From contig CAIOKE010000055.1 of NCBI GenBank assembly GCA_903858815.1, forward strand, positions 1-34,928: a stretch of 34,928 nt of DNA, written 5' to 3'. Every line of letters begins with the position of its first letter. The first letter of the stretch is position 1. The position numbers and the translations under genes were made by a program. This document shows positions 3,774-31,777 of the stretch, one piece after another. This DNA comes from an uncultured Planctomycetaceae bacterium (lineage in GTDB: Bacteria > Planctomycetota > Planctomycetia > Planctomycetales > Planctomycetaceae). The notes under the pieces were generated by a model that was not told the origin of the DNA, ran no database searches, and was given only the letters and a program-made list of their open reading frames with translations.

Positions 3774-3965
3774 CCGACGCGCGGAAACCGCCGTATGGGC
3801 ACGCTGAATGCCCCCAAATCCCGATTTTCTCTGCCCTCAACCATTACCTCGACTCCCCAGCACCCGATCAAGCTTGCTTCTCTGGTGCGAATACGCCATG
3901 CTGTTGTCGACAGTGGCATTCAGAGTGCTCGCGGGTTCGTGACTATTCCGGAAAGTGGGCCGAAA

Positions 3966-5369
3966 ATGAAGGATTTGCAACTGAATCGTCGTCAGGCTCT
4001 GCTGGCCGGGGGACTGGGCACACTCAGTATGAGCATGCCCGGGGTGGTGCTGGGCAGCGATGAGGTCAACGCTGCAGGGCAGGCGGTGCGGGCCGAAAAG
4101 TCCTGCATCTTCATCCTCCTGTGTGGTGGCCCCAGCCATGTCGACACATGGGATATGAAGCCGGAAGCACCGCTTGATTATCGCGGGCCTTACATGCCCA
4201 TCGAAACACAGGTTCCGGGGATGCTGATCAATGAGATGCATACCGAGCTGGCGAAGGTTGCCGACCAGTTCACACTGATCAACTCCATGCATCACCCGGG
4301 TGCCATCAGCAATCACTTTGACGCCATGCATAATCTGCTCAGTGGCCAGTCGACCAAGCGAGTCCAGGAGGGAATTCTGAACGACCAGCCGTACCTTGGC
4401 TGTGTCGTCGCTCGCCATAAACCCAGCACTCGAAACTTTGTCTCCAACGCATGGCTGATCCGCTGTGTCGGTCCCCCCGTTTTCTGTGCACCGAATATCG
4501 GGATCGGTGGCTACCTTGGTTCGGCCTACGCGCCTGTGTTTGTCGGGTCGGCAGAAAACCACCCAGCCATGCCCGGTTTTCAGCCCCCGGAGATTTATGC
4601 ACCAGTGGATGAAAGTCGTTTCGGAGACCGCAAATCTCTGCTGACTCAACTGGAATCCGTCCGCTATGACCGCGACAAGCAGGTGAAAGACTGGTCCGAT
4701 CTGCGTGCCAAAACCTACGACGCAATGACTCGTACGGAAGGCCGTGAAGCATTCGAACTGCATCGTGAGCCGGACGCAGTTCGTCAGCGTTATGGCATGC
4801 ATCCGCTGGGCCAGAATCTGCTGCTGGCACGGCGCATGGTGGAAGCCGGAGTGCGATTCATCACCGTCAACGGCTGGACGGGACAGGCGACACATGATAA
4901 GGGTGGCCCCCCCAGCAGCAGCTGGGACATGCACGGGGGCAACATGGGCATGGGGAATGCCTTTGGCGATGGCTCTTACGGAATGGGCTTCTGCCTGCCG
5001 CGACTGGACCAGGCACTGTCGGCCCTGTTGACTGACCTGCGAGATTCCGGCCTGCTGAAAAATACGCTGGTCGTCGTCACCGGAGAATTCGGACGGACAC
5101 CCTACGTTCTGAAACAGGACCCTCCCGGACGGCAACACTGGCCTCAGTGCTTCTCAACAATCCTTGCCGGAGCCGGTATCAAGGGGGGACAGGTTTACGG
5201 GAAATCCAATCGTTACGGCGAATTCCCGACTCACAATGCCGTGCGACCGGAGGAACTTGCGGCCACCATCTACCACGCCCTCGATATTCCAATCAACAAT
5301 CCGCTGGATGCCACTGGAATGTTCCGGTCACTGACGACCGGCAAACCGATCATGGACTTGTTTGGCTGA
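3966..5369 (+). CDS. DUF1501 family protein, Tat-exported
   Basis: A 467-residue DUF1501 protein, a planctomycete-enriched family related to the alkaline phosphatase/sulfatase fold. Its substrate is unknown. The chosen ATG at 3966 gives a twin-arginine signal (NRRQALL, then a Gly/Leu-rich segment). The frame is open 57 codons further upstream, but that part lacks signal-peptide character. Family motifs include GGPSHVDTWD near the N-terminus, GEFGRTP about 90 residues from the end, a following HWPQ, and the NRYGE segment. In planctomycetes DUF1501 genes usually follow a DUF1549/DUF1553 cytochrome-type partner; here the upstream neighbour is the HExxH pseudogene. The 3' end overlaps the convergent Lgt-like gene by 20 bp. 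Confidence 0.9.
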   Translation: MKDLQLNRRQALLAGGLGTLSMSMPGVVLGSDEVNAAGQAVRAEKSCIFILLCGGPSHVDTWDMKPEAPLDYRGPYMPIETQVPGMLINEMHTELAKVADQFTLINSMHHPGAISNHFDAMHNLLSGQSTKRVQEGILNDQPYLGCVVARHKPSTRNFVSNAWLIRCVGPPVFCAPNIGIGGYLGSAYAPVFVGSAENHPAMPGFQPPEIYAPVDESRFGDRKSLLTQLESVRYDRDKQVKDWSDLRAKTYDAMTRTEGREAFELHREPDAVRQRYGMHPLGQNLLLARRMVEAGVRFITVNGWTGQATHDKGGPPSSSWDMHGGNMGMGNAFGDGSYGMGFCLPRLDQALSALLTDLRDSGLLKNTLVVVTGEFGRTPYVLKQDPPGRQHWPQCFSTILAGAGIKGGQVYGKSNRYGEFPTHNAVRPEELAATIYHALDIPINNPLDATGMFRSLTTGKPIMDLFG

Positions 5370-6048
5370 TGCCTGGCGTATCCCGATACCATAGCCAGCC
5401 GAATCCAGCGATCAGCATCAGACTGGCCCACTGATACAGGGTCAATCCCGCTGAAAACCGCACCTCCGGACGAATGAACTCCGTCAGGAATCGCCAGCCT
5501 GCATAGGCGATGATATAGATTTTGATCAGCTGGCCTCGACACAGCTGCCGTCGCAGTGCCACAGCCATGATACCGGCAGCCACCGCATGAAATGCCGTCT
5601 CGTAAAGCTGCACCGGGTGACGCGGCTGCCCGTCAATCTGACGAAACACCACGCCCCATGGCAGTGTTGTGGGAGTTCCATAACAGCAGCCACCCACGAA
5701 ACAACCAATCCTGCCAATTGCGATGGCGACAGCAACCGGCACGGAAAAACTGTCCCCCGTGCGAGTTCGAACACCTAGACACCACTTCGCTGTCTCAACC
5801 CCCAGATACCCGCCCGCCATCCCCAGCAGGATCGTTTTGCCATCTGAAAACCATGCAGCGCCACTCAGAAATGACTGCCAGTCCGAAAACAGAAACGGCA
5901 GTTTAGCGCCGATCATGGAACCACAGAATGCACCCACTCCGATGCCCAGCCGCTCAGTCGCAGCAAGTCCCAGATTACGCTGTGTCTGCCGCGACAGAAC
6001 AAAGGCCGCCAGCACCGCCAGCAACATGATGCAGGAATAAGCCCACAT
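5350..6048 (-). CDS. Lgt-like integral membrane protein (prolipoprotein diacylglyceryl transferase family paralog)
   Basis: A 232-residue multi-pass membrane protein of the Lgt superfamily. The signature around residues 112-124 reads GRIGCFVGGCCYG, and RHPVQLYE and EFIRPE follow, matching the fold's conserved Arg positions (about R113 and R193). Canonical Lgt moves diacylglycerol from phosphatidylglycerol to the lipobox cysteine. This copy lacks several residues that define it in E. coli: the HGG His is replaced (GMAGGYLG), and the Asn and Glu of the GRxGNF signature are Cys or Gly. A standard lipoprotein role is therefore doubtful. Its ATG overlaps the stop of the radical SAM gene (TGATG), so the two are probably translationally coupled. 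Lipid handling for that enzyme is an inference. Confidence 0.8.
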   Translation of the reverse strand: MWAYSCIMLLAVLAAFVLSRQTQRNLGLAATERLGIGVGAFCGSMIGAKLPFLFSDWQSFLSGAAWFSDGKTILLGMAGGYLGVETAKWCLGVRTRTGDSFSVPVAVAIAIGRIGCFVGGCCYGTPTTLPWGVVFRQIDGQPRHPVQLYETAFHAVAAGIMAVALRRQLCRGQLIKIYIIAYAGWRFLTEFIRPEVRFSAGLTLYQWASLMLIAGFGWLWYRDTPGISQTSP

Positions 6049-7580
6049 CAGTCGGCCCCGCCCAGTGTCACAAGGCCCGCTGCTGCCGGCTTAGCAGCGG
6101 AGCCCCGCAACGCCGGCAGAGCTACTCGGCCATCACGATACAACAGATTGTAGGCACAAAATGGGATCAGATGACCACTGGGCAGCACATGATGCACACA
6201 CGACTTCATCAGCTGCCGAATGTCAAAGTTCCACGCATCCATGAAACTTGTCGTCGTAATTCGAAACACGTCCGCCGGAGACAGATCTTCCGTCAGACAG
6301 CGTCGAAAGAACGAGATGGCCGACTGCTCCACTGCAGCACTCAGCTCCGCTGCCACTGCGTTGCCCTGACGAGCACGCGATACCGTCGCCGGGAAGCCTG
6401 CTGCTGCCGGCAGTGCCACACTGCTGCAACTATCATCACAACCACTTGACTGCCGGGACATGAATTTCGCGATCAGATCACGAGCACTTCCGCGATTGAA
6501 TGTGATTCCGTTTGCCAGCAGATCAAGATGGTTCTGGATATCGATGAAACGAGTCAGGGGAGTCAATCGCCCCTGTTCCCGATAGGCATAGGCCAGTGAA
6601 TGGGCATTCGGATGAGCACACGGCAGTGGCAGAAAATCAGATTCCTGCCAAACCCCGGCAGATTGCTCTGCAAGTCCCCGAATGATGTCCGGAAATGTCA
6701 CACGACGCTCCAGCGTTTCCGGCAATGGACAGCGTCCGACATACGTCGCAGGCTGAAAACTGACCCCCGTGATCCACGGACGCTCCGCACCGAAGCGAAC
6801 GATCGCCCCCAGCTGCTGCGTATTGACATCCGTCTCCACCGTACAGACGAGGATTGTGCGAATATCCCGCTTTCCCAGCTCTTCGATCGCACGCAGTTTC
6901 GTCTGCAGCAGAGGTTCACCACGCAGCGTCTGACTGCTGGCTTCGTCAAGACCATCGAACTGCAGATACACTTCGCACCGTCGGTTTCGCTGCTGCAGCT
7001 CATCCAGCAGACGCTGATCCGTGGCCAGACGTACCCCGTTGGTATTGATCATCACAATATCAATCGGCTGCCGACAGGCATAATCCAGAATCTCGACGAA
7101 CTGCGGATGAATTGTAGGTTCACCGCCCGACAGTTGCAAAATTTCGGGCCGCCCTTCGTACTGCACCAGAAAATCAATCGCTCGCCGACAGTCCTCTACA
7201 GTGACATGTACGCCACCCGGTCGACTGGATGCGTAACACAAAGGACACGTCAGGTTGCAGGAGGACGAAATCTCCAGCACACCAATACACGTATGCTGCT
7301 CATGCTCGGTACACAGCCCACAGTCGAAGGGACAACCACGCCGAGGTTCGATCGCAAAGCCGACCGGAAGCTTGCCCGGCAGGCTGTACTCCATCCGATC
7401 AAACCAGCGATCATCACTGCACACAAAATCTTCACGGGCGCCGTGCTGCACACACTGCTTCAGAAAATAAACGCGACCGTTTCGAGACACGATCTTCGCG
7501 GGTACGACGGCGAGGCACTGCGGACACAGACTCTGAGTCGTTCCAAGAAATCGATGATCACGCAGCTTCAGTCTGGCCAT
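6048..7580 (-). CDS. Radical SAM enzyme of the MJ0619/Tes (tetraether lipid synthase-like) family
   Basis: A 510-residue radical SAM protein. The SAM cluster motif is CNLTCPLC (C108, C112, C115), with GGEP about 45 residues later. The N-terminus has CPQC (C19, C22), a VYFLKQC segment, and a second Cx3Cx2C triad in GCPFDCGLC (C83, C87, C90) just before the main motif. A segment with IPFCAYN lies near the C-terminus. This layout and length resemble Methanocaldococcus MJ0619, known as Tes, which carries several iron-sulfur clusters and couples lipid tails carbon to carbon. Bacterial homologs have been proposed to make membrane-spanning lipids. The substrate here is unknown, and other relatives are uncharacterised. 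The gene sits in a minus-strand operon, 34 nt after the zinc-ribbon gene and coupled to the Lgt-like gene. No strong Shine-Dalgarno is seen before its ATG. Confidence 0.8.
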   Translation of the reverse strand: MARLKLRDHRFLGTTQSLCPQCLAVVPAKIVSRNGRVYFLKQCVQHGAREDFVCSDDRWFDRMEYSLPGKLPVGFAIEPRRGCPFDCGLCTEHEQHTCIGVLEISSSCNLTCPLCYASSRPGGVHVTVEDCRRAIDFLVQYEGRPEILQLSGGEPTIHPQFVEILDYACRQPIDIVMINTNGVRLATDQRLLDELQQRNRRCEVYLQFDGLDEASSQTLRGEPLLQTKLRAIEELGKRDIRTILVCTVETDVNTQQLGAIVRFGAERPWITGVSFQPATYVGRCPLPETLERRVTFPDIIRGLAEQSAGVWQESDFLPLPCAHPNAHSLAYAYREQGRLTPLTRFIDIQNHLDLLANGITFNRGSARDLIAKFMSRQSSGCDDSCSSVALPAAAGFPATVSRARQGNAVAAELSAAVEQSAISFFRRCLTEDLSPADVFRITTTSFMDAWNFDIRQLMKSCVHHVLPSGHLIPFCAYNLLYRDGRVALPALRGSAAKPAAAGLVTLGGAD

Positions 7581-7614
7581 CTTTTTTACCGTTCAGATCA
7601 GGCACCGCATACAG

Positions 7615-8331
7615 CTAATCACGATCCACATCACGTCGATAGCGAGCTGCGATCAGCTTGCCGGTCAGGAACAGGCCAGCGAGCACAGCAAACCCCGCCG
7701 CCGGCAGAATGATGGCGAATGGATCACTGGAATTCGCCCCCGACGCAAGGACACCAAAGCACAGAACCACAAAACCCACAACCGCACTGACACACCACAG
7801 AAGAACCAGACCGGCCGTCACTGCAACCGACGTCAGGAACAGCTCGATCCGTTGCCCACCCTCAACCGATTTTCCTTTCGATTCACGCTGCATCGTCACA
7901 ATCATTGTTCGAACAAGGGGTGGGATCATCAACAGACCGTACAGAATGGCGATCCCAGGTGATGCCTGATACAGCACCAGCCCAACGCCCACCAGCATGA
8001 ACAGCAGCAGGCATGTGATCAGCACACGCACTGCTGATCCGGACGTACTGCTCTCTGCATGTTGAGCACTGATTTCGAAGGGATTGGACTGCAGTGGCGG
8101 CTTTCCGAGCGATCCTGCAACTGCCGGAACAGCAGTCGCTTCAGCGGCAGGCGACAGAACAGCCCGCTGCCCAGCAGACGGTACGGCATCTGCCCCTGTC
8201 CCCCGGCCTGTCGACACCGGACGCGGCAACGCGGTACCTGTCGGAGTAAAACAGAGCCAGCAGTTGGTGTTACCGGCACGCAGCTCAGCACCACAACAGC
8301 GACAACTTCCCGGAGCTGATCCGGTCCTCAT
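7615..8331 (-). CDS. Zinc-ribbon membrane protein, unknown function
   Basis: A 238-residue protein. The first 30 residues hold two Cys pairs (CRCCGAEL and CWLC), consistent with a zinc-ribbon. A Pro/Ala/Gly-rich linker of about 85 residues follows, then roughly four transmembrane segments and a basic cytoplasmic tail. No catalytic motif is seen. Its ATG overlaps the stop of the upstream membrane-protein gene by four bases (ATGA), and the radical SAM gene begins 34 nt downstream, so it is part of the same operon. The function is not recognised; a scaffold or membrane-anchor role for the module is only a guess from context. Confidence 0.75.
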   Translation of the reverse strand: MRTGSAPGSCRCCGAELRAGNTNCWLCFTPTGTALPRPVSTGRGTGADAVPSAGQRAVLSPAAEATAVPAVAGSLGKPPLQSNPFEISAQHAESSTSGSAVRVLITCLLLFMLVGVGLVLYQASPGIAILYGLLMIPPLVRTMIVTMQRESKGKSVEGGQRIELFLTSVAVTAGLVLLWCVSAVVGFVVLCFGVLASGANSSDPFAIILPAAGFAVLAGLFLTGKLIAARYRRDVDRD

Positions 8332-9029
8332 GACTGCTGCTCCTGTCCGGAGACCCGCTGCAGATCAAAAGCCAGCTGGCGTACATGACGAACCATCTGC
8401 CCCACAATGACCCCTGACATCACAATCGCAAGGCCCAGCACGAACTGATGATAGCGAGGCAGCATGGGATGCGGCTGAGCGAGTAATACCCCCTGCGGCC
8501 AGCGTGCACACCCCAGCAACACAACATAACCAACCAGACAGCAGCCCGCAGCGGCTTTCACCCAGTTCAGATTCAGTCGCAGCCCGGCCATCATCACAAT
8601 CAGAAAATAACCGCAGACCATGGGACTGGCGGCCCCCGAGCCACAGAGCAGAACGGCCGTCAGCAGCAGACTGTCAACACAGATCGATAACAATGGCAAA
8701 CGGCGAGGAAACACGCGATCCAGCAACAGCACATGCACCAACAGGCTCCACAACACCCACGCTGCGACAATCACTGTAATCGCCAGATGTCGCTGCTGAG
8801 AAATCGCGACCGCAGAATCCTGCAGAGCAAGCGAGCCAAAACCAGCGTCAACCCGAAACCGCAGCAGATGCGTCAGATAGAACACAGTCAAAGCGACCAC
8901 CCGCAACGCATTGACCCGCAGCTCTGCCTGGTACTGTCGCCAACGACAGACAACATCCCACGCCGACGCCGCCGGACCACCAGCCGGATCAACAACCGGA
9001 TCAGTCTTCTCTGCTGCAAGCATATACAA
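8328..9029 (-). CDS. Multi-pass membrane protein, unknown function
   Basis: A 233-residue protein with about five to six predicted transmembrane helices after a hydrophilic N-terminus of about 45 residues, and a short charged C-terminus (RHVRQLAFDLQRV). The helix arrangement resembles the membrane sensor portion of some bacterial kinases or cyclases, but no output domain follows. It is the first gene of the minus-strand operon and overlaps the next by ATGA. Two ATGs lie close together at the start (9029 and 9023), and neither has a strong ribosome binding site. No family is confidently recognised. Confidence 0.7.
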   Translation of the reverse strand: MYMLAAEKTDPVVDPAGGPAASAWDVVCRWRQYQAELRVNALRVVALTVFYLTHLLRFRVDAGFGSLALQDSAVAISQQRHLAITVIVAAWVLWSLLVHVLLLDRVFPRRLPLLSICVDSLLLTAVLLCGSGAASPMVCGYFLIVMMAGLRLNLNWVKAAAGCCLVGYVVLLGCARWPQGVLLAQPHPMLPRYHQFVLGLAIVMSGVIVGQMVRHVRQLAFDLQRVSGQEQQS

Positions 9030-30670: not shown

Positions 30671-31777
30671 ATGCGTCATGCGTTCATCTCCGCTGTCTCC
30701 CTTCGGGGCGCCTGCCTGCTGGGTCTGGCGTATCTGCTTTCCGGGCTGTGTGTGGTCGCAGATGACATCACCGAAATGCAGAAAAAGGCCCTGCAGTTTC
30801 TTGAAGTGACTCAGGATCCAGGTGGTTCGTGGACAACGAATGAGTCTGTGGGAATCACAGGACTTGTGACGTCTGCTCTGGTGCAAAGCGGTCGTGGCCC
30901 TGATGACCCGGTTGTGGCTCGCAGCCTGAAATTCCTTGTCGGGATGCAGCAGCCAACCGGTGGTATCCACGCCCCTGCCAGCCGACATCAGAATTATGAA
31001 ACCTGCATTGCCATGATGGCACTGGCTCAGGCCGGTCGTGATGGCCGATTCGATTCGCAGATCAGCAAGGCTCAGCAGTTTCTGCGTGACCTGCAGTGGG
31101 ATGCCGGTGAGGGTGTGGAAAGCAGTGACGGCGCCTGGGGTGGTGCCGGCTACGACAGCAAACAGCGTCCCGACATGTCCAACACTCAGTTCCTGCTTGA
31201 GGCATTGAAGCAGTCTGGCGTCCCAGCGGACGATCCAGCCATGCAGAAGGCGCTGGTCTTTATCAGCCGCGCACAGAACCTCGAGTCTCCTTACAACACG
31301 ATGCCGTGGGCGGGAAAGATCAACGACGGCGGCTTCATTTATACTCCCGCCAAAGGCGGCGAATCGAAAGCTGGCGTGACCGACAACGGCGGTCACTCGT
31401 CCTACGGCAGCATGACATATGCCGGACTGAAAAGCATGGTGTATGCCGGATTGAAGAAGGATGATCCGCGAGTTGCCGCAGCCACCCAATGGATCCGCAA
31501 AAACTACACGCTGAAAGAGAATCCGGGGATGGGCCAGCAGGGGCTGTTCTACTACTTCCAGACCATGGCCAGGACTCTGCAGGTTCTGGAAGTGAAGAAT
31601 TTTGAGGACTCCGCGGGGAAATCCCATGATTGGCGAGCGGAACTGACCGAACGACTGAAGCAGTTGCAGCAGCCCAACGGCAGCTGGACGAATCCCGCCG
31701 ATCGCTGGTACGAAGGCGATCCCAACCTCGTCACAGCCTACTGCCTGATCGCCATCGCGAATGCTCGACAGAACTGA
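30671..31777 (+). CDS. Secreted prenyltransferase/squalene-oxidase-repeat protein
   Basis: A 368-residue protein with an N-terminal signal peptide (hydrophobic stretch ending near CVVA). Repeats of an alpha/alpha toroid follow, marked by QDPGGSW, QQPTGGIHAP, SDGAWGG and QPNGSWTNP, the QxxxGxW-type pattern shared with squalene cyclases and terpenoid cyclase-like proteins. The catalytic DxDD of true cyclases is not seen, so an enzymatic terpene role is unlikely. CAGGAA lies about 9 nt before the ATG. It begins a likely operon with the SGNH hydrolase (9-nt gap) and DUF309 (4-nt gap). This type of secreted repeat protein is common in planctomycetes and its function is not known. Confidence 0.85.
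   Translation: MRHAFISAVSLRGACLLGLAYLLSGLCVVADDITEMQKKALQFLEVTQDPGGSWTTNESVGITGLVTSALVQSGRGPDDPVVARSLKFLVGMQQPTGGIHAPASRHQNYETCIAMMALAQAGRDGRFDSQISKAQQFLRDLQWDAGEGVESSDGAWGGAGYDSKQRPDMSNTQFLLEALKQSGVPADDPAMQKALVFISRAQNLESPYNTMPWAGKINDGGFIYTPAKGGESKAGVTDNGGHSSYGSMTYAGLKSMVYAGLKKDDPRVAAATQWIRKNYTLKENPGMGQQGLFYYFQTMARTLQVLEVKNFEDSAGKSHDWRAELTERLKQLQQPNGSWTNPADRWYEGDPNLVTAYCLIAIANARQN

Follow-up and report, generated by a model that had tools for sequence, protein, structure and literature searches.

What reaction could a radical SAM enzyme carry out when its gene overlaps that of an Lgt-fold membrane protein? This question is raised by a minus-strand locus in DNA from an uncultured Planctomycetaceae bacterium, analyzed here as a stretch of 34,928 nucleotides (the window). 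An earlier note on this DNA had described a four-gene membrane operon that might modify membrane lipids. All four open reading frames are found as described, in the order TM233, Znr, radical SAM gene and LGT, from position 9029 to 5350:

8328..9029, minus strand: TM233, a six-helix membrane protein with a TTG start (open reading frame list, predicted structure, fold match)
7615..8331, minus strand: Znr, zinc-ribbon-like N-terminal cysteines followed by hydrophobic segments (sequence)
6048..7580, minus strand: Tes-like radical SAM protein, 510 aa (NCBIfam, Pfam, alignment, fold)
5350..6048, minus strand: LGT, an Lgt-fold membrane protein, 232 aa (NCBIfam, Pfam, alignment)

The proposed operon is borne out at each junction. 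TM233 and Znr share an ATGA overlap read from the sequence at 8331-8328, a gap of 34 nt separates Znr from the radical SAM gene, and the stop of the latter overlaps the LGT start by 1 nt at 6048 (TGATG). A promoter scan found no sigma-70-like site 5' of the operon; its two matches within the radical SAM gene overlap each other and are not above shuffles. Terminator-like sites number 10, compared with 4.9 in shuffles.

The radical SAM protein matches PF04055 with 64 bits and PF23545, the HMPTM N-terminal zinc ribbon, with 63 bits. Foldseek places the Tes structures 7tom (E 4e-40) and 7tol (3e-39) on top, with a TM of 0.75 and 27-28% sequence identity, and the next entry follows at 1e-11. The reference enzyme of the Tes family joins archaeal membrane lipids. 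Assignment to that family itself fails. The Tes model NF045702 gives 284.7 bits, under its equivalog cut-off of 450 bits, and in a genome search it gave 271 bits, with none of 21 genomes above the cut-off. The best NCBIfam match is TrsS (NF045646), which aligns in a single stretch over approximately the full model and scores 344.9 bits against a cut-off of 490; none of 392 genomes of the phylum lies above that cut-off. By NCBIfam, the protein is under both cut-offs and slightly closer to TrsS than to Tes. The structure comparison and Tes-profile search proposed in the earlier note thus returned the Tes fold without Tes membership. True membership was rejected on this score and on the loss of cysteines that presumably bind a C-terminal cluster, as seen in the metal sites:

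7443..7526, minus strand: rubredoxin-type site C19-X2-C22-X20-C43-X2-H46 (alignment)
7302..7334, minus strand: N-terminal auxiliary [4Fe-4S] site C83-X3-C87-X2-C90 plus H93 (alignment)
7236..7259, minus strand: radical SAM CX3CX2C motif, C108, C112 and C115 (sequence)
6156..6605, minus strand: presumed C-terminal auxiliary cluster positions A326, S460 and C475 (putative ligand assignment)

Three of the four Tes metal sites (rubredoxin, N-terminal cluster and radical SAM) are present with identical spacing, which together with the top Foldseek matches supports the Tes fold and the MJ0619/Tes cysteine layout first recognized from the letters. The corresponding Tes rubredoxin motif is given as C9X2C12X20C33X2H36 in excerpts of PMC9433317. 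At the SAM site, Tes Gln268, Ser271, Arg275 and Arg210 have their aligned counterparts in Q276, T279, R283 and R220. The fourth site differs. In Tes, the C-terminal [4Fe-4S] cluster, with its labile Met439, holds the first radical in the form of a carbon-sulfur bond. In the window protein, A326 and S460 occupy Tes cysteine positions while C475 is retained, and T444 and H464 align with Met439 and Tyr459. Throughout the window's clade C326 and C460 are absent (25/25 rows), as is C475 in 19 of 25. Another LGT-linked clade has C460 and C475 replaced in 12 of 12, and sister lineages with LGT retain cysteine at 326, 460 and 475. These three positions are probably the ligands of a Tes-type radical-storing cluster, of which the clade has lost 326, 460 and often 475. 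The insertion that follows DFYPVP in Tes is also absent, and residues 380-407 of the predicted structure have no confident structure.

These residues bear directly on whether the enzyme is a true bacterial synthase of membrane-spanning lipids, which would couple the acyl tails of two phospholipids as Tes does while LGT presents the lipids. Tes is the closest solved relative, sister lineages bearing LGT keep all three cysteines, and bacterial Tes homologs have been proposed to make such lipids, according to excerpts of PMC8941075 and PMC11868695. However, the score lies under the Tes equivalog cut-off, the insertion is missing, and two LGT-linked clades have lost cysteines that probably hold the radical-storing cluster, so that Tes chemistry is unlikely in the window's clade. 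Met439 and Tyr459 are not retained either, yet Tes variants M439A and Y459F remain active. Some carriers are aerobes, which was counted against this explanation as well. It is judged quite unlikely. Tail cross-linking by the window's clade is not supported, and the cross-linked lipids that had been envisaged for this locus find no support, the storing cluster having probably lost its ligands.

The NCBIfam ranking points instead to an enzyme resembling TrsS, acting on a small molecule or in metal or selenium chemistry, with LGT serving only as membrane platform or lipid anchor for the product. The uninterrupted match across the whole TrsS model fits this explanation, as do additional invariant cysteines (C98, C321 and C461) and three relatives that adjoin a methyltransferase rather than LGT. 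These three, however, sit on long separate tree branches, and LGT is near-obligatory within the window's own family. This explanation is considered unlikely. We know of no function for the TrsS-like relatives. The excerpts available of PMC13188914 list TrsS itself in a single table row.

The downstream gene encodes a relative of Lgt. As the earlier note had suggested, LGT belongs to the Lgt-like membrane proteins, with 105.4 bits for PF01790 against a cut-off of 24.9. It stays under the curated cut-off of every Lgt model matched, with 54.7 of 118.9 bits for equivalog model TIGR00544 and 90.5 of 334 for NF000778. The same genome encodes a separate Lgt that scores better. Two segments hold the conserved residues:

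5677..5715, minus strand: counterpart of the Lgt signature, residues 112-124 (GRIGCFVGGCCYG) (alignment)
5470..5505, minus strand: Y182, R186, E190 and R193, counterparts of E. coli Y235, R239, E243 and R246 (alignment)

Within the signature, R113 corresponds to E. coli R143 and C116 to N146. Counterparts of E. coli R143, E202, Y235 and R239 are identical in all 37 LGT homologs, R113 and R186 being those of the catalytic R143 and R239. Excerpts of PMC4728403 assign residues of the E. coli enzyme to holding phosphatidylglycerol and activating its C3-O bond, and place the active site in the periplasmic half. By alignment, LGT is an Lgt paralog that retains the residues for both tasks. No histidine is found at the H103 position when aligned by eye; the genome's other Lgt has a tyrosine there, so this position is not diagnostic. 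A GCC motif (GRIGCF..GCC) was rejected as diagnostic of the LGT family since it is present in the other Lgt, and the first of its two cysteines is absent in 10 of 37 LGT homologs.

The pairing of the two genes recurs on a genomic scale. Among 297 genomes of the class, 73 carry both genes, 6 have the radical SAM gene alone, 1 has LGT alone and 217 have neither; among 59 relatives the corresponding numbers are 19, 1, 0 and 39, with related genomes being non-independent samples and presence defined by the thresholds used. At these thresholds, LGT is missing from 6 of the 79 class genomes that have the radical SAM gene and from 1 of 20 such relatives. The linkage is far above chance. Both genes lie no more than 6 kb apart on one contig in 60 of the 73 class genomes that have them. 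Of 80 named loci, 68 have LGT downstream on the same strand, in 48 cases at -200 to +60 nt (longest open reading frame), and no LGT is adjacent in the other 12. In other classes of the phylum the pair is adjacent in 15 of the 20 best-scoring loci. Adjacency also extends to Bacteroidota, Actinomycetota and two Polyangia bins, and both gene orders occur. The pair is also found on plasmids of Persicobacter, Nonomuraea, Mycobacterium branderi and M. avium. Two loci (L256 and L257) have a trio of TM233, Znr-like and LGT genes with no adjoining radical SAM gene, which their genomes encode elsewhere, and one (L051) has a divergent Tes-like pair amid fatty-acid-synthesis genes. Cultured carriers of both genes include Blastopirellula marina DSM 3645, Lacipirellula limnantheis and Botrimarina colliarenosi. 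The B. marina radical SAM protein retains cysteine at 326, 460 and 475 and is predicted to carry three [4Fe-4S] clusters and one rubredoxin iron, against a predicted two and one for the window protein. Excerpts of the open-licence PMC literature yielded no description of the pair.

The co-occurrence search across planctomycete genomes, set in advance as a check, therefore revealed conserved linkage and excluded its absence. This holds for the radical SAM and LGT genes rather than for all four, since the 80 related loci, a part of them truncated at contig ends, include 27 with TM233 and 41 with Znr. These two proteins are common but optional members of the module. TM233 starts with TTG, although an ATG is present two codons further in, and its predicted structure has six helices (pLDDT 86.9). 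A Pfam search with the window's TM233 gave no match; its homolog in another locus (L045) reaches PF25323 (6TM_PilS) at E 6e-4 and 20.1 of 27 bits, under the cut-off. The best fold match is the membrane domain of ImcA, with a probability of 0.99 but an E of 0.14. TM233 looks like a PilS-type sensor's membrane domain that lacks an attached output domain, and a role as an enzyme is unsupported. Znr has zinc-ribbon-like cysteines near its N-terminus (Cys 10, 12, 13, 24 and 27), and its hydrophobic segments presumably span the membrane; no Pfam family scores above cut-off.

Over the 80 loci no further constant partner, such as an ether-lipid or fatty-acid gene, stands beside the module; the next most frequent gene clusters, one of them DUF1501, occur in 8 loci each in this tally of crude hexamer-based gene calls. 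This tally bears on a radical-modified lipopeptide or lipoprotein pathway, in which a peptide or small transmembrane partner would be modified and LGT would add diacylglycerol. A small transmembrane protein, sometimes with a zinc ribbon, does lie beside the pair in distant lineages, and a lipoprotein route in peptide maturation has been reported elsewhere (PMC12636315, in excerpts). Beyond the four genes, however, none exceeds 8 of 80 loci, by gene calls that are not tailored to precursor peptides. Peptide-maturase models all score far under their cut-offs, and the fold is that of Tes rather than of a SPASM maturase. Such a pathway is very unlikely. A low-scoring PADLOC hit to pVip (40 bits) inside the radical SAM core suggested an antiviral viperin-type enzyme. 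This match spans residues 104-216 at most, a region common to many radical SAM enzymes, whereas the Tes fold extends over the full length; a role in viperin-type defence was rejected and has next to no chance of being correct.

The explanation preferred here, with a probability of about one half, is a conserved module of a new type for modifying membrane glycerolipids. As judged by alignment and fold, its core is a Tes-fold enzyme whose SAM, rubredoxin and N-terminal cluster sites are intact and which is tied genetically to an Lgt paralog. The four genes together probably modify membrane lipids, and we infer from homology that the substrate is a glycerolipid. The radical enzyme would take hydrogen from the hydrocarbon part of this lipid on the membrane's inner side. 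The Lgt-fold protein may bind the same lipid, as substrate or product, and pass on or transfer its diacylglyceryl part, while Znr and the sensor-like TM233 could help in docking or regulation. In the window's clade a single-radical reaction, such as desaturation, functionalization or addition to a partner, would be likelier than head-to-head coupling of tails because the cluster that parks the radical is probably gone. Inspection by eye revealed no signal peptide or membrane helix in the radical SAM sequence; with the active site of E. coli Lgt in the periplasmic half, the two proteins need not act directly on one lipid, a point counted against the module. Also counted against it were the closer NCBIfam score to TrsS, the genomes with a radical SAM gene but no LGT, the loci without an adjacent LGT, and the signature shared with the genome's other Lgt. 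In a more specific scheme, judged less likely than not, a Tes-type enzyme without a radical-storing cluster would alter the tail, and LGT would then take the altered diacylglyceryl group from phosphatidylglycerol and attach it to some acceptor that is not a prolipoprotein. Among the papers listed by searches of the open-licence PMC literature, none with a lipid study of a carrier strain bearing on the substrate was found.

If this more specific scheme is correct, planctomycetes and scattered other bacteria would have a new lipid pathway, with a lipid or lipid-anchored product that is not yet described. In surveys, bacterial Tes homologs are tallied among the candidate producers of membrane-spanning lipids (PMC8941075 and PMC11868695, in excerpts). 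The planctomycete branch described here has a fixed membrane partner and, in two clades, a radical-storing cluster that is probably dismantled, which suggests that such counts mix functionally different enzymes. The near-complete pairing also gives an orphan radical enzyme a substrate-handling partner that is open to testing.

Several known systems resemble parts of this module. Tes, the GDGT-macrocyclic archaeol synthase MJ0619 (NF045702; 7tol and 7tom), shares the fold, the rubredoxin, N-terminal cluster and radical SAM sites, and the SAM contacts; the window protein departs from it in its low identity and score, in lacking Met439, Tyr459, the Tes insertion and the presumed C-terminal cluster ligands, and in being tied to a membrane partner. 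The TrsS radical SAM (seleno)protein (NF045646) gives the top NCBIfam score, but this falls short of the required 490 bits, and the window protein has an LGT partner. Lgt, the phosphatidylglycerol:prolipoprotein diacylglyceryl transferase (PF01790, TIGR00544; 5azb), is matched above the Pfam cut-off with counterparts of R143, E202, Y235, R239, E243 and R246 retained; LGT differs in its 232 aa, its cysteine at N146, the missing H103 histidine and scores under the curated cut-offs. Mss and Ger, proposed in excerpts of PMC13274423 for bacterial lipid tail coupling and ether formation, are likened to the module by the description of these lipid roles. Gms and GrsA/B are likewise radical SAM enzymes acting on membrane lipids, set apart by description as other subgroups with a different domain make-up (PMC11186832, in excerpts).

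The radical SAM gene lies in an operon of four minus-strand open reading frames that an earlier note had located, and all four are present at exactly these positions. They and the other relevant genes of the window are as follows:

9029-8328, minus strand, TM233, a membrane protein
8331-7615, minus strand, Znr, a zinc-ribbon transmembrane protein
7580-6048, minus strand, radical SAM protein, 510 aa
6048-5350, minus strand, LGT, an Lgt-like paralog, 232 aa
9172-13038, minus strand, large SASA-esterase-domain protein, the operon's upstream neighbour
3795-5369, convergent with the operon, DUF1501 protein, the nearest neighbour on the other side
30671-31777, squalene-hopene-cyclase-like repeat protein

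The operon junctions, read off the sequence, are in order ATGA, 34 nt and TGATG. Elsewhere in the window, no lipid chemistry gene other than the cyclase-like repeat protein was found.

Gene distribution indicates that radical SAM and LGT are tightly coupled genetically. Among 59 related genomes, 20 carry the radical SAM gene, at E values under 1e-150, and 19 of these also carry the LGT paralog (over 250 bits), which is found in none of the other 39 (next best match 96.8 bits). Across 297 genomes of the class, searched at E 1e-40 for radical SAM and E 1e-35 for LGT, 73 have both genes, six radical SAM only, one LGT only and 217 neither (Fisher p 4e-61, a statistic that ignores kinship). The six are G014, G122, G140, G171, G221 and G313; the sole radical SAM match is divergent in G122, G140 and G171 (285-297 bits) and is a 254-aa frame in G313. 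The match in the LGT-only genome, G097, spans 107 of 249 LGT positions. The pair shares a contig, at most 6 kb apart, in 60 of the 73 genomes and is separated in 13, in some perhaps through contig breaks; in G126 and G137 the two genes lie deep inside different contigs.

The linkage proposed for all four genes holds for this pair, but not to the same degree for TM233 and Znr. In the 80 best-scoring loci of 493 relatives, LGT is found on the same strand as radical SAM in 68, Znr in 41, TM233 in 27 and all four genes in 25. Twelve loci lack LGT. Two of these have fewer than 500 bases downstream, and four belong to G003, G008, G014 and G016, which, except for G014, carry LGT on another contig. 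Four loci (L126, L127, L129, L131) have the order radical SAM-LGT-TM233-Znr. No other gene family recurs around more than 8 of the 80 loci.

Ten of the 59 relatives have a TM233 ortholog (over 130 bits). All ten belong to the 20 that carry the radical SAM gene, and in each the ortholog lies at most about 5 kb from an LGT gene; weaker matches, with one exception, sit in frames of 470-834 aa. A TM233 homolog has a sub-threshold match to PF25323 (PilS membrane domain), and the six-helix TM233 model weakly resembles ImcA. Genomes G001 and G006 carry a second TM233-LGT pair, with the radical SAM gene on a different contig. The protein between the two genes (164 or 176 aa) has zinc-ribbon cysteines and stays below the Znr profile threshold. 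Znr matches also occur in rows of up to three upstream of the radical SAM gene:

L256 4622-6510 and L257 4299-6266, second TM233/Znr-like/LGT trios
L099 4484-5978, L081 148-1743 and L104 3838-5889, Znr rows

TM233 and Znr would be accessory, perhaps serving in sensing and docking.

Beyond the class, the 20 top-scoring loci from the rest of the phylum (L194, L202-L206, L208-L221) were compared, and 15 have LGT within 1.5 kb of radical SAM, on either side; the exceptions are L202, L210, L215, L216 and L219, two of which (L210 and L219) are truncated. All four genes occur in two Polyangia bins (L117, L118). Because L117 nests within the planctomycete family in a quick tree, these loci may reflect binning error or transfer. 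Ten plasmid records hold relatives, and seven were examined. LGT adjoins the radical SAM gene on plasmids of Persicobacter (Bacteroidota) and Nonomuraea, and is two small genes away on those of Mycobacterium branderi and M. avium. At L259, L262, L263, L269, L270 and L274 the pair is accompanied by small transmembrane proteins of 82-151 aa, some of which bear a CxxC zinc ribbon. On plasmids of Mycolicibacterium vanbaalenii and two haloarchaea (L273, L276, L277), a methyltransferase gene follows radical SAM in place of LGT, and DUF547 and redoxin genes adjoin the haloarchaeal copies. For the TrsS-like family this adds a further, puzzling gene neighbourhood.

The radical SAM protein had been assigned to the family of Tes (MJ0619), which joins archaeal lipid tails. 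It shares the fold and first three metal sites of Tes, but falls below the NCBIfam cut-off for that family (NF045702, 284.7 bits against 450), as it does for TrsS (NF045646, 344.9 against 490). Its score is closer to TrsS-like relatives, a group without known substrate. PF23545 (HMPTM N-terminal zinc ribbon) matches at 63 bits. The sole strong PDB sequence match is MJ0619 (7tol, 5e-71), improving to 1.4e-108 with a profile from alignment A1 of the family. The AlphaFold model (pLDDT 82.8, pTM 0.84) matches 7tom (E 4e-40) and 7tol (E 3e-39) best, with TM 0.75 and 27-28% identity; the third entry is far behind (E 1e-11). The gene is single-copy in its own genome, where the only further match has E 7e-5.

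The available text on Tes (PMC9433317) describes a rubredoxin-type motif C9X2C12X20C33X2H36, an N-terminal cluster held by C73, C77, C80 and a histidine, a CX3CX2C motif, and a C-terminal cluster with labile Met439. Spacing identical to the first three sites is found in C19-X2-C22-X20-C43-X2-H46, C83/C87/C90/H93 and C108/C112/C115. Met439 and Tyr459 are replaced by T444 and H464, which alone excludes nothing, because M439A and Y459F Tes retain activity according to the same text.

MJ0619 has cysteines aligned to window positions 326, 443, 460, 461 and 475. The C-terminal cluster would be held by the three at 326, 460 and 475, together with Met as a fourth ligand. In 75 aligned rows (the window protein, 51 of the 80 loci and 23 other proteins), all three are present in 38 and absent in 26; six lack 326 and 460, and five lack 460 and 475. 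Positions 326 and 460 co-vary in the 38-row alignment A6 (both in 24 rows, neither in 14). The window's clade (25 rows, SH-aLRT 99) has lost 326 and 460 in all rows and 475 in 19, with C475 retained in the window protein itself. A second LGT-linked clade has Ser/Thr at 460 and Asp/Glu at 475 in all 12 rows. The tree, which is quick, has long branches and represents Tes by one sequence and TrsS by no member over the cut-off, requires two changes at 460 and five at 326. The C-terminal cluster has probably been dismantled in two lineages. Every one of the 38 rows of A6 has three further cysteines outside the assigned metal sites; Tes has the one at 461 and lacks those at 98 and 321:

7289-7287, minus strand, C98 codon
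6620-6618, minus strand, C321 codon
6200-6198, minus strand, C461 codon

Placement of LGT in the Lgt superfamily is borne out by PF01790 (105 bits), with scores below the cut-offs of TIGR00544 (54.7 against 118.9) and NF000778 (90.5 against 334). The genome has one further PF01790 protein (178.7 bits; G000:C77:60392-61156), presumably the housekeeping Lgt. The available text of PMC4728403 gives roles for E. coli Lgt residues R143, N146, E202, Y235, R239, E243 and R246. In 37 LGT homologs, the counterparts of R143, E202, Y235 and R239 are invariant, while Glu (34) or Asp (3) stands for E243, Arg (30) or Lys (7) for R246, and in every case Cys for N146. The window LGT lacks His at the position of H103. 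The presumed housekeeping Lgt itself departs from the E. coli signature, with Tyr for H103 and GRIGCFLYGCCYG, which the window LGT shares; neither feature is used as a mark of LGT.

By sequence, the window's radical SAM site is intact, on the fold of Tes, and its LGT partner has a phosphatidylglycerol-type binding site. One glycerolipid could be their common substrate. Lipid cross-linking, as suggested in the earlier note, is disfavoured in the window's clade, because the probable loss of the radical-storing cluster speaks against coupling of two tails and favours a single-radical reaction. Since the radical SAM enzyme appears cytosolic and the LGT site, by comparison with E. coli, would face the periplasm, the steps may be sequential, with the lipid flipped between them. 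The available literature on planctomycete lipids yielded no lipid evidence for the carrier organisms.

Tes homologs are already known from Planctomycetota, in 110 of 684 Black Sea MAGs (PMC11868695), and from bacteria in general (PMC8941075), as far as the available text of each indicates. In the accessible open-licence literature on Tes, TrsS, Lgt with radical SAM, and planctomycete lipids, we found neither the loss of C-terminal cluster ligands nor the Lgt-paralog pairing. In a same-genus relative (L051, G006:C251, 2342-9158), two divergent Tes/TrsS-like radical SAM genes stand in tandem within a fatty-acid-synthesis cluster that has a FabA-like gene, two ketoacyl-synthase-like genes and an SDR gene. 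This arrangement recalls the clusters proposed, in the available text of PMC2649909, for ladderane or polyunsaturated chain synthesis.
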